DNA of 64,000 bases from Fretibacter rubidus (GTDB lineage Bacteria > Pseudomonadota > Alphaproteobacteria > Caulobacterales > Maricaulaceae). Position numbers and translations under genes: made by a program. Positions 10,358 to 38,728 of the stretch are shown here, piece after piece; position 1 is the stretch's first letter; the number at the start of each line of letters is the position of its first letter. The notes under the pieces were generated by a model. It ran no database searches and was not told the origin of the DNA. It worked only from the letters and a program-made list of their open reading frames with translations. The DNA lies in contig NZ_CP163423.1 of assembly GCF_041429785.1 (NCBI RefSeq), forward strand, positions 930,001-994,000. Direction: 5' to 3'.

Positions 10358-10564
10358 GCGGGAGAGCGTTCTTGCGTTTGCAAACAAACGTTAGGACCGC
10401 CGAAGGAGCAACCGCCGCCGGAAACTCTCAGGTACCGAGGACCGCTTGGATGTAAAACGCTGGAAAGCGGGCTGTATAGTGAAAAGCCCCGCCGACGGAG
10501 TAAATCGCGCGATTTGCGATAAATCACGCGATGAATCTCTCAGGTCTAAAAGGACAGCGGGTAG
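10358..10564 (+). ncRNA. Tandem glycine riboswitch upstream of gcvT
   Basis: Two glycine aptamers in series. Aptamer 1 (about 10358-10448) begins with GCGGGAGAGCG and carries the conserved CCGCCGAAGGAGCAA and AACTCTCAGGTA cores. Aptamer 2 (about 10467-10562) begins with GCGGGCTGTATAGTG and repeats GCCGACGGAGTAAA and AATCTCTCAGGTCTAAAAGG, closing with ACAGCGGG. A hairpin (CACGGA/TCCGTG, about 10571-10587) lies between it and the gcvT start with no U run. Control is therefore more likely at translation than by termination. Glycine is expected to switch the operon on so that excess glycine is degraded. Confidence 0.93.
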
Positions 10565-10602
10565 GCTCTTACACGGATTTAGTCCGTGAGTTCGGCCACG
10601 TT

Positions 10603-34250: not shown

Positions 34251-37202
34251 TTAGTCCTTTTTCAGATTTTTCAAAGCGGCCAGCGCGGCAAAGGGGCTGT
34301 CCTCAATCTTACGGGGACGCTCTTTGGGGGCCTTAGGCTTATTATCGCGGGGTGTATTATTACGATCACCACGCGGTTTGCCTTTGAAATTACCTTTTGG
34401 CTTACCTTTGCCCTTGAAGGCACGGTTGTCATTGCCTCTATTATCAGGACGCCCGCCGCCACGTTTTTTAAACGGCATCGTCCAAAGCTCTTGCGTGGGT
34501 AGGTCGACTTGGGTGCCGTCCTCTAGCGTTTCGCGGCGTGTATAGGGTGATAGCGGTTTAGGCCCTGATTTGGGCTTAGGGGCAGGCTTTGGGGCGTCTA
34601 CGGCTGGTGCGTCAGCTTTTGGCGCTTCGGCTGCAGGCGTTTCAGCCACAGTCGGCGCAGCAGGGTTTTCAGATGCAGGAATTATGGGCGCTGGTGTTTC
34701 TGTCGTCGCGGCTTCTGTTGCCGCGTCTTCCACCTTCTCTGGTTCTTCTGCCTTCGCGGGCTCTTCCACCTTTGCTTCGGGCTTAACCTCCACTTCCTCG
34801 GACTTATAGCCTAAGGATTGCAGCACACCGCGTGTGTCGTCATAGCTACTGCCGAGCAGCGCGAGCATTTCCTGCATAATCACAAATTTGCGGCCCCCCG
34901 CTTCGCTCATGGCTTGACGGATAAGGTTGGCGAGGCGGTCGAGAATATCAAAGCGTACAATCCGCGTCCCGCAGGCCCGGTATCCCGCCACGGCCAGCGC
35001 TTGGTCTGTGTAATGGGTCGACGATAACTCGCCTTCGTTTTGAATGGACGTCACGCCTGCAAATGGGATAAACGGTTTTTTGTCACCACCCGCGCCGTAA
35101 GATAACAGCAGGGAAAGCAATGTCGCGGGCTTCGGTTTAATCATATCGCGCATGAAAACAGTATATTGCCCGAAATAAACGCCGACTTCGCGGAGTTGCT
35201 TACGCGCGTCCTGGTCCAAATCACGGACAATCTGACCTTGCTTGGCGCGGTCAATGTAACCAAAGTTTTCCAGCATAGAGAACGCAAAGCCGCGTGTGGC
35301 GGGCAGGGCCTCTGGGCTCTCGGATAGGGCTTTTAATTTCAATAGCGGTTCCAGCTTCGCCGTTACCTCAGCCTTAAGAAAATCACGCATACGGTTCACG
35401 GCGAGGTTTTGTAGGTTCTGGTTCCCCAGCGCGCCGCCAATTAATTCTGCATCAGGATTAAACACAGATCCGCTGCTGGCGATGCGGCCCACGGCTTTGC
35501 CGCCCCACATGATGCGGCCCGTATCATCAAGCGTAAAGATAGCATGTGTGCCCCCGCAAAGGCTGGTCAGCCGGCGGTCAATTTCAGGGCCAACAGCGGC
35601 CGCAGCCGTCGCTTGTAACGCTTTGGCTTCTAGGTCTGTGGCGCTGTCATCAAGGCGGAAGTCCACCCCGTCCAGATAGCCAATTTTGTGGCCATCGACC
35701 CACACTTCGCCGTTATCTTTTACGCTGGTTTCCATGGGGTTACCCAATCCTATATTTTTTAATAGCGCGCTTGTGCGTCTATCGACAAAACGCGCGATTA
35801 AGCTTTCATGTAATGCATCCGACAGGCGGTCTTCGACCTCTCGTGTGCGGGCGTTCCAATGCTTTGCATCCCACATCCAGCTTACTTTGTTTGCGCAATA
35901 CGTCCAAGTGCGGATTTGCGCAAGGCGCGATGACAAAATATCCACCCCACCGGACGGGTCGTCAAGGCGGCTAACCTGCTTATTCATATAATCATCGGGC
36001 AAGCGGTGCTTGTTATTTTGCAAAAGCCTATAGATGTCTTGGAGCAACCGGACATGGGCATCGATGGTGACATTGCGAAAATCAGGGATTTGACAAACGT
36101 CCCACAGGCGCCGCACATCCGCTGGGATTTTAATACTCTGCTGGATTTCGGGGATGGCCGATAGGCGCTCAAAGGCTAGCTCGTCTGTGACCCCTTTGAC
36201 GCGGCGCAGGCGGCGGTGTTTGCCGCCAATATGCAGGCTATCGTCCAGTGCTTTAATCGAGCGAAAATCAAGCGCTGAATTGCGCCACTCGACATGGGTC
36301 ATGGGATCAAAATCGTGATTTTCAATCCGCTCTATGGTCTCGGGGTCAAGCTCTGGGCAGTCGCCTGTGGTGCCAAATGTGCCCTCATTACGAAACCGCC
36401 CCGCTCGGCCTGCAATTTGGCCCAGTTCCATGGGCGTTAGCATGCGCCGTCTGCGCCCGTCATATTTTCGGATGGACGCAAAGGCGACATGATCTGTGTC
36501 CAGATTCAGCCCCATACCCACCGCATCTGTTGCTATCAGGAAATCAACCTCGCCGGATTGATAAAGTTCGGCTTGGGCATTGCGGGTGCGCGGGGATAGG
36601 CCGCCCATAACCACCGCCGCGCCGCCGCGTTGACGGCGGATAAGCTCTGCAATAGCGTAAACCTCTGCGGCTGAAAAGGCGACAATCACAGAGCGTTTGG
36701 GCAGGCGCGTTATCCGCGTCGCGCCCGCATATGTCAGGGTGGAAAACCGTTCCCGCGTGTCATGCTGCGCGCGGGGCAAAAGCTCTCGAATGATAGGACG
36801 GGCCGTTTCCGCGCCGAGGAATAATGTCTCCTCTGTGCCGCGCGCGTTAAGAAGCCTATCAGTGAAGATATGCCCGCGCTCGAAATTACCCATCAATTGG
36901 ATTTCATCGACCGCGAGGAATGAGAAGCGCCTATCCATCGGCATGGCTTCCACCGTGCAAACAAAATAGCGCGCATTGGGCGGAATGATTTTCTCTTCGC
37001 CAGTAATCAGTGCGCATTGATTGGCAGGCTTTATCGCGCAAATTTTGTCATAAACCTCACGCGCCAACAGCCGCAACGGCAAGCCAATTACCCCGCTCCC
37101 GCGCGCAAGCATCCGTTCCACCGCATAATGCGTCTTCCCCGTATTCGTCGGACCAAGAATAGCCGCAATACGCGCAGGGTTAAGATTTTCGGAGGATGCC
37201 AT
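34251..37202 (-). CDS. SUV3-like DExH-box RNA helicase with disordered C-terminal tail
   Basis: Protein of 983 residues. Motif I (Walker A) is at residues 17-24, GPTNTGKT, the DExH-type box is DEIQ near 100, and helicase C contains TDAVGMGLNLD and GQIAGRAGR. These are the hallmarks of the SUV3/mitochondrial degradosome helicase family, widespread in alphaproteobacteria. From about 800 the sequence is Ala/Glu/Pro-rich, then strongly basic (NRAFKGKGKPKGNFKGKPRG), probably RNA-binding and disordered. A role in RNA degradation is inferred from the family. No ribosome site is obvious before the ATG. Confidence 0.93.
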   Translation of the reverse strand: MASSENLNPARIAAILGPTNTGKTHYAVERMLARGSGVIGLPLRLLAREVYDKICAIKPANQCALITGEEKIIPPNARYFVCTVEAMPMDRRFSFLAVDEIQLMGNFERGHIFTDRLLNARGTEETLFLGAETARPIIRELLPRAQHDTRERFSTLTYAGATRITRLPKRSVIVAFSAAEVYAIAELIRRQRGGAAVVMGGLSPRTRNAQAELYQSGEVDFLIATDAVGMGLNLDTDHVAFASIRKYDGRRRRMLTPMELGQIAGRAGRFRNEGTFGTTGDCPELDPETIERIENHDFDPMTHVEWRNSALDFRSIKALDDSLHIGGKHRRLRRVKGVTDELAFERLSAIPEIQQSIKIPADVRRLWDVCQIPDFRNVTIDAHVRLLQDIYRLLQNNKHRLPDDYMNKQVSRLDDPSGGVDILSSRLAQIRTWTYCANKVSWMWDAKHWNARTREVEDRLSDALHESLIARFVDRRTSALLKNIGLGNPMETSVKDNGEVWVDGHKIGYLDGVDFRLDDSATDLEAKALQATAAAAVGPEIDRRLTSLCGGTHAIFTLDDTGRIMWGGKAVGRIASSGSVFNPDAELIGGALGNQNLQNLAVNRMRDFLKAEVTAKLEPLLKLKALSESPEALPATRGFAFSMLENFGYIDRAKQGQIVRDLDQDARKQLREVGVYFGQYTVFMRDMIKPKPATLLSLLLSYGAGGDKKPFIPFAGVTSIQNEGELSSTHYTDQALAVAGYRACGTRIVRFDILDRLANLIRQAMSEAGGRKFVIMQEMLALLGSSYDDTRGVLQSLGYKSEEVEVKPEAKVEEPAKAEEPEKVEDAATEAATTETPAPIIPASENPAAPTVAETPAAEAPKADAPAVDAPKPAPKPKSGPKPLSPYTRRETLEDGTQVDLPTQELWTMPFKKRGGGRPDNRGNDNRAFKGKGKPKGNFKGKPRGDRNNTPRDNKPKAPKERPRKIEDSPFAALAALKNLKKD

Positions 37203-37419
37203 AGCGTGTGTGTAGCACTGCGAGGATGAAGTTCAATGCGAGATTTGACGCGGGCGAAACCATAAATAACGTCTGTGGATACAAATCAAGAACAAGCTAG
37301 TAATTTTTGAATTATTTCATATAGTTACTCAGTCTGATTCGTTTTGCGCCTTTTAACGGCGAGGCAATGGGTGTCTCAGGCAGGGCATGCCTTATGTCCG
37401 AACAGCTATGGAGTTAACT
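37203..37419. other. Leader region of the small gene at 37420
   Basis: 217 bp with no protein gene between the divergent helicase start and a small ORF. It is AT-rich around 37290-37330. A GGAG ribosome site is at about 37411. I see no clear sigma-70 promoter and no known RNA motif. Confidence 0.4.
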
Positions 37420-37545
37420 ATGGCTACTAAGACTACAAAAATCGGTCGGTCTGCAAAGACGGGTCGATTTACTACAGTCAAGCAGGCTTAGCGTTATAAA
37501 ACGACTCACGTCGTTGAAACGGTGAGAAAAACAAAAGGTAAGTAA
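37420..37545 (+). pseudogene. Small basic protein gene interrupted by an in-frame TAG
   Basis: Starting at an ATG with a good GGAG ribosome site, 23 codons encode a short basic peptide containing KIGRSAKTGRFT. A TAG stop at 37489-37491 follows. The same frame then continues for 17 more codons, ending VVETVRKTKGK and TAA. Read through, the 41-residue product resembles a widespread family of tiny proteins with an N-terminal GRxAKTGRF motif and a C-terminal TTVVETxxK motif (recalled pattern, not searched). One base change (AAG to TAG) would explain the break. A strong terminator follows, so the unit is intact at transcript level. Confidence 0.6.
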
Positions 37546-37553
37546 CCTGAGTT

Positions 37554-37594
37554 CTGAGCGCTTTCGTCTTGGCGGAAGGAGGCGCTCAGTTTTT
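37554..37594 (+). terminator. Intrinsic terminator after the small TAG-split gene
   Basis: Stem CTGAGCGC/GCGCTCAG with a partly paired inner loop and a TTTTT run, 9 bp after the TAA. Confidence 0.88.
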
Positions 37595-37654
37595 CTTATT
37601 AGTAATACGTAAATCGATTCTTAACCGCGTGAAGGTAATTTTTATTTGCTTTTA

Positions 37655-38590
37655 TTAAGGCGCAATAATCTCCCACTCATCCAGTTTTATGACGGCCTTA
37701 ATCGCGCTGATTTTATAGGTGAATCGCAATGGGATATTGAGGCCTAGATCGGGTCGGGGGACAAAGTAGACCGTCACGGGGGTGGAGCCTTCTTCGTCAC
37801 TCGGCAGGTCTTCGGGGTCAAAACCGTTTATTGGCTCATAATAGACTTTGCAGCGCACGGTCTGCACATTGTCTTTGCCAAATTTGCGAGTCTTGGTGCC
37901 GTCGCGTTCCATGCGCAGGCCGTAATGTTGCTTGCTATCAAATGTGCGCACAGTCCCGTCACATAACTCTCCGCCGATACGCTCGCCGCGCAGCATCAAA
38001 TTCAGTACCGCCGATATTGTGTCATCGGCTGAAAACCGTTCCTCTGGACTGGCAGGCGGGACGCCTTGGCTGCCGAGTGTTGGGATGATGTTGACGTCAA
38101 TGGTGCTGGCCTCCGTGTCATAATTCATTTCAACCCGGCGCTCTTTGCCGTCCATATTTTGCTGCACATGGAAATCAGGGTGCAGGCCGTCTTTATCAAA
38201 GCGACCAGAGGTGACCGCCCAAATCTCTAGCTTTTTTAAAAGCGCGCCAAGGCCTGATGTTTTGATGTCGGCATAGGCGGCGTAGCGGCCAGTTTCAGCT
38301 GTCACGTCATCAGGGTCTACATAGCCTGTATAGTTGGCCTTGATCATACGGATGCCAAAGACATAGCCTTTCAACCCAAAACGAAATTGCAGGGCATCTT
38401 CGCTGGGCGCGATGATGTCATATCGACGCTCGCCGAGATTACGCGCATTTAGCGTGGGCATGTTACGCTCATTCATTATCAAGTTAGCTGTGGATTGCGG
38501 CACAGCAGAATCGGTCTGGCCAAGGACAACGCCGTAACCCGCAAGAGCGGTCAGGGCAAAGCCCGCAAAAGTTATATGTCGTGTTTTCAT
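37655..38590 (-). CDS. DUF3108 domain-containing secreted protein
   Basis: Protein of 311 residues with an N-terminal signal peptide (ITFAGFALTALAGYGVVLGQ). A beta-rich domain matches the DUF3108 pattern, with LQFRFGLKGYVFGIRMIKANYTG near the start and VYFVPRPDLGLNIPLRFTYK near the end. DUF3108 proteins are periplasmic or outer-membrane-facing with unknown role. I start at 38590 because the signal peptide begins there; a longer frame would add 24 residues. In many alphaproteobacteria this gene lies between rpmB and the SUV3-like helicase, as here. Confidence 0.88.
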   Translation of the reverse strand: MKTRHITFAGFALTALAGYGVVLGQTDSAVPQSTANLIMNERNMPTLNARNLGERRYDIIAPSEDALQFRFGLKGYVFGIRMIKANYTGYVDPDDVTAETGRYAAYADIKTSGLGALLKKLEIWAVTSGRFDKDGLHPDFHVQQNMDGKERRVEMNYDTEASTIDVNIIPTLGSQGVPPASPEERFSADDTISAVLNLMLRGERIGGELCDGTVRTFDSKQHYGLRMERDGTKTRKFGKDNVQTVRCKVYYEPINGFDPEDLPSDEEGSTPVTVYFVPRPDLGLNIPLRFTYKISAIKAVIKLDEWEIIAP

Positions 38591-38728
38591 AGGCCGTCTA
38601 TAGCGCAACAAACCCCACGCAATGCTGAACAAATGCCCCGATTTGCATGAAATATTGGTCATATACAGCGGGGCAGGCTAAGCAGCGGTGTTTTGTGGGA
38701 TTAGTCCTGTGATTAGGGCTAAAAGGGG

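Follow-up and report, generated by a model that had tools for sequence, protein, structure and literature searches.

The small open reading frame at positions 37420-37545 of the window is probably an acquired gene from an uncatalogued microprotein family, present as a solitary copy, that an in-frame amber mutation has inactivated recently. The window is the whole stretch of 64,000 nucleotides that was analysed, bases 930001-994000 of the complete 3.45-Mb one-contig genome of Fretibacter rubidus. Translation of the frame gives MATKTTKIGRSAKTGRFTTVKQA*RYKTTHVVETVRKTKGK, that is, 23 residues, a TAG codon, 17 residues, and a TAA codon. The features of the locus are:

37203..37654, no strand: intergenic stretch with the tiny gene, defined by the neighbour ORFs and by comparison with two same-genus drafts
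37335..37341, + strand: TGATTCG, a match to the GcrA consensus YGAKTCK that contains GANTC, 85 nt 5' of the ATG
37340..37419, + strand: 5' leader, whose predicted fold puts the start codon in a stem and is weak here (z -0.77)
37410..37413, + strand: Shine-Dalgarno GGAG, 6 nt 5' of the ATG, from the sequence
37420..37488, + strand: first ORF half, 23 residues, by translation; its N-half profile score ranks 1st of 66
37489..37491, + strand: in-frame TAG at residue 24, by translation and alignment, within the sole helix of the model (20-25)
37492..37542, + strand: second ORF half, 17 residues, with the family pattern T-H-V-V-E-T kept; model strand 30-37
37543..37545, + strand: TAA, the stop of the full-length frame, by translation
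37554..37594, + strand: intrinsic-terminator-like hairpin and T run, from the sequence and from repeat and terminator scans
37616..37620, no strand: GANTC site 3' of the terminator, by motif scan

A further GANTC site lies inside the ORF at 37503. The upstream neighbour is a divergent 983-aa ORF (window 34251-37202), which we take to be a helicase-like gene, and the downstream neighbour gene occupies 37655-38662. A preliminary description of this DNA had credited the ATG with a good ribosome site, which the GGAG six nucleotides upstream bears out. It had also described a strong terminator. A hairpin is present, with arms of 15 nt at 37554-37568 and 37575-37589 that are 80% complementary and are followed by TTTTT, but a scan with a terminator consensus returned one terminator-like site versus 0.5 expected in shuffles, so the grading as strong rests on the longer hairpin. 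Elsewhere in the window there is a glycine riboswitch aptamer (10450-10567, + strand; Rfam RF00504, 58 bits).

With the read-through protein as query, a relative was found in another genome at E 4.6e-11. Nine of 385 genomes of the class matched at E <= 0.1, and these nine include the window's own genome and some unrelated weak matches. After profile searches and scans of sequence collections, including a scan of genome contigs in which 40 of 56 pattern matches were confirmed, 65 relatives were aligned, and both halves of the protein were covered in all of them except L079. Their sources are alphaproteobacteria, gammaproteobacteria, Bacteroidota, contigs labelled as other phyla, four plasmids, and IMG/VR contigs. 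The set was picked by motif together with a significant match, and truncated copies may be under-sampled in it. Dropped from it were L002, L008, L010, and L011 (unrelated or start-less weak matches), L003 (the same locus as L056), and a phage match at E 6. Also outside the set are L029-L036, among which the 13-residue match of L034 (E 0.007, with a TAA inside) was taken for chance; L037-L039 (E 0.01-0.09); and L134-L137 and L139-L146, of which L134-L136 are identical in protein sequence to L072, L076, and L063.

The consensus assembled for the family was 'KIGR[DS]AKTGRF..VKxA......T.VVETIK', and its members are very basic proteins of about 40 residues. The window copy is like the family in length, basic composition, ribosome site, and both halves of the motif: the N-terminal R-[DS]-A-x-x-G-x-F is present, and the C-terminal T-x-V-V-E-T segment is present in the DNA 3' of the TAG. 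It differs in being the sole one of the 66 aligned sequences with a stop in the matched region, a TAG at codon 24, through which the frames of the 65 relatives are open. Among 19 close relatives hand-chosen from the 65, median pN was 0.121 and median pS was 0.844 (171 pairs). Because pN is far below pS, the family is a conserved protein under protein-level selection and not a product of chance. The earlier recognition, from the letters of this one stretch, of a tiny basic protein family with both halves kept is thus upheld by the 65 aligned relatives, the E 4.6e-11 match, and the pN and pS values. Terminator-like hairpins were seen by eye after several family members. In L071 (an 85-aa frame) and L145 the tiny domain is tandemly duplicated within a single ORF. 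The copy in L049, on a contig labelled Nocardioides marinus, is nearly identical to that of Ruegeria (L047), possibly through assembly contamination.

No model of Pfam, NCBIfam, or PHROGs matched the window protein, and 46 family members gave only scattered weak matches to these libraries (lowest E anywhere 0.013), the most consistent of which was phrog_34166 (six of the 46 members, best E 0.057). A sequence search of the PDB returned no match at E <= 10, and a PDB fold search returned 43 matches, the best at E 2.5, that named no function. Likewise, no function was named among the 50 of 151 matches listed from a fold search against viral models, of which the best was an unnamed 112-aa protein with 30% identity (E 0.11, probability 1.00). 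The family was not met in a literature search with two peptide strings, and its status as undescribed rests on that search and on the family libraries. There was no annotated gene beneath any of the four plasmid matches in an annotation table that is itself incomplete, and gene annotation seems to miss the family.

The preliminary description placed the TAG where AAG would restore a lysine, a proposal that the alignment does not favour. Nine residues occupy this column in the relatives (Q in 20, K in 14, E in 10, V in 6, T in 5, R in 4, N in 3, I in 2, and D in 1), so that Gln is the commonest and Lys is not singled out as the lost residue. Five relatives have R-Y in common after the column, and in these the residue is E (L043, L046, L048, and L055) or V (L018). 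Because the column is variable, and because its R-Y relatives carry four E and one V, Lys is not the obvious ancestral residue.

An AlphaFold2 model built with 46 aligned sequences had a mean pLDDT of 88.4 and a pTM of 0.55. The model is confident and beta-alpha-beta, with a strand at 4-11, a helix at 20-25, and a strand at 30-37, in which the two long strands are presumed to be paired. Since the TAG at residue 24 cuts the chain within the helix, so that the last strand is lost, the model makes a functional 23-residue product unlikely. Restart of translation 3' of the stop was considered and rejected: an in-frame ATG is missing from the second half, which has a single GTG near its end. We give very little credence to the 23-residue N-terminal peptide as itself the functional product in this lineage. 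Of the 66 members it has the highest-scoring N half against the family profile, but V32, E33, and T34, which lie in the predicted last strand, vary little or not at all among 46 sequences. The preliminary description held that members lacking the second half would count against a broken gene; one such member was found among the 65 (L079), in which the second half is replaced by unrelated sequence (C score -9.3) rather than shortened.

Divergence on the two sides of the stop bears on its age. Compared with the 19 close relatives, the window copy had a mean pN of 0.096 in the N half and 0.225 in the C half, and intact pairs had 0.072 and 0.180. The window/intact ratios of 1.33 and 1.25 are alike, so there is no clear extra relaxation 3' of the stop; pS was 0.87-0.90 on both sides, with synonymous sites near saturation. 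The C-half profile score of the window copy ranks 45th of 66, and its C-half mean identity is 19th of the 20 in its clade, a hint that decay perhaps began earlier than the pN comparison says. Taken together, pN, profile rank, and identity make the stop look recent, or an error; the sign of a recent mutation is that the protein has no clear added relaxation 3' of it.

Three options had been named at the outset: a fresh nonsense mutation, a sequencing error, and readthrough. The first is the best supported, and a young pseudogene is the best verdict. Its main rival is a sequencing or assembly error, in which the TAG was miscalled and the gene is intact in the organism. This is unlikely, though it is the one alternative that carries some weight. 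A second half no more relaxed at the protein level than the first looks as if nothing had been broken, and the tiny gene is single-copy in the genome, which leaves no second copy to check against. On the other side are the quality of the complete one-contig genome, which is 100% complete and 0.5% contaminated, and the 53 long ORFs, up to 983 aa, that cover 85% of the window. Readthrough at the TAG, whether programmed or leaky, would yield a low level of the full 41-residue protein and keep the second half under selection, but it appears quite improbable. The second half is indeed still constrained, and a column that tolerates nine residues might accept most inserted amino acids, but a stop used for programmed readthrough would be expected to be conserved among relatives, and none of the 65 has one there. 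The suppressor tRNA that the preliminary description proposed to look for was not found: the Rfam tRNA model detected 37 tRNAs in the genome, and the anticodons that ARAGORN gave for them include no CTA. RF1 is present (470 bits versus a cut-off of 423), and TAG is a common stop here, ending 20 of the 53 ORFs of at least 120 aa that were selected greedily in the window. A suppressor tRNA, a recoded TAG, and pyrrolysine were thus rejected, given the tRNA content, RF1, and TAG usage.

The reading in which the transcript matters and not the peptide, with a structured RNA made from a GANTC promoter and carrying a dead ORF, is extremely unlikely. Sixteen leaders, hand-chosen, were folded, and all had negative z-scores, from -0.54 to -3.64; judged by eye, the ribosome site or the start codon takes part in many of the minimum-energy folds. 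The window leader reached only -0.77, however, no Rfam family was found at gathering threshold at the tiny-gene locus, and the family evolves as a protein, with pN far below pS. By eye, the window leader has a promoter/leader segment in common with relative L017.

The tiny gene was missing between the same two neighbours in both same-genus drafts examined, in which these neighbours are about 50 and 67 bases apart (counted by eye) versus 452 in the window. Both drafts are 70-73% complete, which means that a copy at another place in them might have escaped detection, and the sequences between their neighbour genes have diverged too far for an insertion edge to be placed. No sure relative was found in overlapping sets of 40 and 60 other genomes, 36 of the 60 being from the same genus or family, and the best weak match was at E 0.01. 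Of 298 other genomes of the order, 12 matched at E <= 0.001. The G+C content here is 0.42, versus 0.52 in the window. The patchy distribution and the low G+C suggest that the tiny gene was acquired. The gene is bracketed by a direct repeat of 9 bases, GTAATTTTT, with copies at 37300 and 37635, which was rejected as an insertion trace, as such a pair is expected by chance on a rough, uncomputed estimate.

Several relatives are passengers of IS1595-family transposons. Neighbour proteins were hand-picked from 207 listed (48 upstream and 61 downstream), and seven of the 48 upstream proteins scanned were IS1595/ISXO2 transposases (PF12762 with PF12760), a count that is a minimum and has no background rate behind it. 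In these seven loci (L046, L063, L069, L076, L081, L082, and L088) the tiny gene lies directly behind the transposase, which is on the same strand and ends 133-265 bases 5' of it. Six of the seven have inverted repeats of the ATTATATACTTGA type around the transposase, the tiny gene, and further ORFs, with flanking duplications of 8-10 bases (by eye) and elements of 2.2-2.8 kb; L082 is cut by the contig end and has the right repeat only. L137 also has inverted repeats on either side of the tiny gene. Ten downstream passengers searched against Pfam gave one named family (DUF1828) and one sub-threshold match, and PADLOC, run on the 61 downstream proteins, gave none with more than two proteins among the 25 of 205 models listed. 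In viral contigs, 26 IS1595 relatives were found; several of these contigs stop shortly behind the transposase or match just a part of it. Two of the 26 carry the tiny gene, both at loci already known. Forty-four plasmid records, 30 of them from Pseudosulfitobacter, have such a transposase, and none of the eight loci examined carries the tiny gene. Because only two of the 26 IS1595 relatives in viral contigs and none of the eight plasmid loci examined carry it, the tiny gene is one passenger among many.

Unlike these passengers, the window copy has no IS1595 transposase directly upstream and no ATTATATACTTGA-type inverted repeats within 6 kb (at most two mismatches), and a transposon insertion at this site was rejected because no IS1595 inverted repeat surrounds the gene. 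The sole IS1595 transposase match in the genome, at C1:2787165, has no adjoining tiny gene. The genome's own IS1595-type element (L152 1139-5299; about 2785738-2789898 of G000:C1) is about 4.15 kb long, with inverted repeats and several passengers, and an ORF beside it is presumably a terminase large subunit.

Other repeats were noted at individual relatives. In L051-L054 and L059, complementary arms of the GGCGGTTA..CCC / GGG..TAACCGCC type lie just before and just after the tiny gene and seemingly vary in step, as in a long-range RNA stem or the ends of an element; no target duplication that would mark them as transposon ends was seen by eye. In L052 the tiny gene sits between transposon-end-like repeats with 2 and 1 mismatches, of which the left lies only 142 bases before it. 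There is no room for a transposase on the left, and a non-autonomous element is possible.

Upstream of the alphaproteobacterial and IMG/VR copies, GANTC sites were abundant, with 45 found versus 8.9 expected from the same loci. These counts come from 32 upstream regions, each at most 180 bases long, that remained when 41 were collapsed to a non-redundant set without L049, L140, and L141; L080 had too little upstream sequence. At least one site was present in 24 of the 32 regions and none in eight. The ratio of 5.1 for GANTC compares with at most 2.4 for 15 control palindromes. GANTC was also frequent 3' of the gene (27 sites versus 5.9 expected in the 120 bases after the stop), and the members from other groups (n = 20) had 5 sites versus 10.2 expected. 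The consensus YGAKTCK, given for GcrA in a passage of PMC7987155, occurred 23 times versus 2.0 expected, in 17 of the 32 loci, including the window at 37335-37341. An intergenic bias of GANTC is described in part of PMC3973325 and is put at 1.5-fold in a citing passage of PMC7987155. This known bias is insufficient to explain the excess, because the density here is 7.81 sites/kb versus 2.87 sites/kb in 107 other upstream regions from the same loci, 41 of which have a site.

In the window as a whole GANTC is rarer than composition predicts (1.05/kb versus 3.88/kb), which is only an indirect sign that CcrM may be encoded and the site methylated. The genome encodes GcrA (PF07750, E 3.7e-50); in a control, PF07750 matched two of 14 genomes, Caulobacter vibrioides and, oddly, Sulfolobus acidocaldarius. 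Passages of PMC3667746 report that GcrA binding is enhanced by methylation, and that changed GANTC sites cost four promoters 60-80% of their activity and left a fifth unaffected. The arrangement here, YGAKTCK/GANTC upstream of a gene in a genome that encodes GcrA, is like that of the GcrA/CcrM-controlled promoters of Alphaproteobacteria. However, the targets named in the relevant parts of PMC3667746 and PMC7987155 are host genes, many of them cell-cycle genes. These upstream sites suggest that expression of the family is tied to DNA methylation, and we infer that it may be GcrA-controlled.

If the window copy is a young pseudogene, its transcription would start at a GcrA/CcrM-type promoter with its YGAKTCK site at -85 and would end at the hairpin 3' of the TAA. 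Ribosomes would stop at residue 23 and release a peptide without the last strand that is probably unable to fold. The intact protein, with a computed charge near +10, would probably bind nucleic acid, and this putative binding may serve the mobile elements that carry it. A solitary host copy would be dispensable, so its loss would be tolerated.

A wider proposal can be put forward only tentatively, at somewhat less than even chances: that IS1595-type transposons, plasmids, and phage-like contigs carry an undescribed, widespread family of beta-alpha-beta microproteins, and that its alphaproteobacterial copies are turned on via GcrA at CcrM-methylated GANTC sites and are restrained in translation by a leader that masks the start region. 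If true, a mobile-element gene would be wired into the replication-coupled DNA methylation of its host, an idea comparable to the Dam control of IS10. Taken alone, the TAG probably marks no more than a recent loss of an ordinary kind; the greater interest lies in the family, which is uncatalogued, and in its methylation-site promoters. The window copy would serve as a natural null allele, and the locus as an entry point to the question of whether mobile elements time microprotein expression by CcrM methylation.
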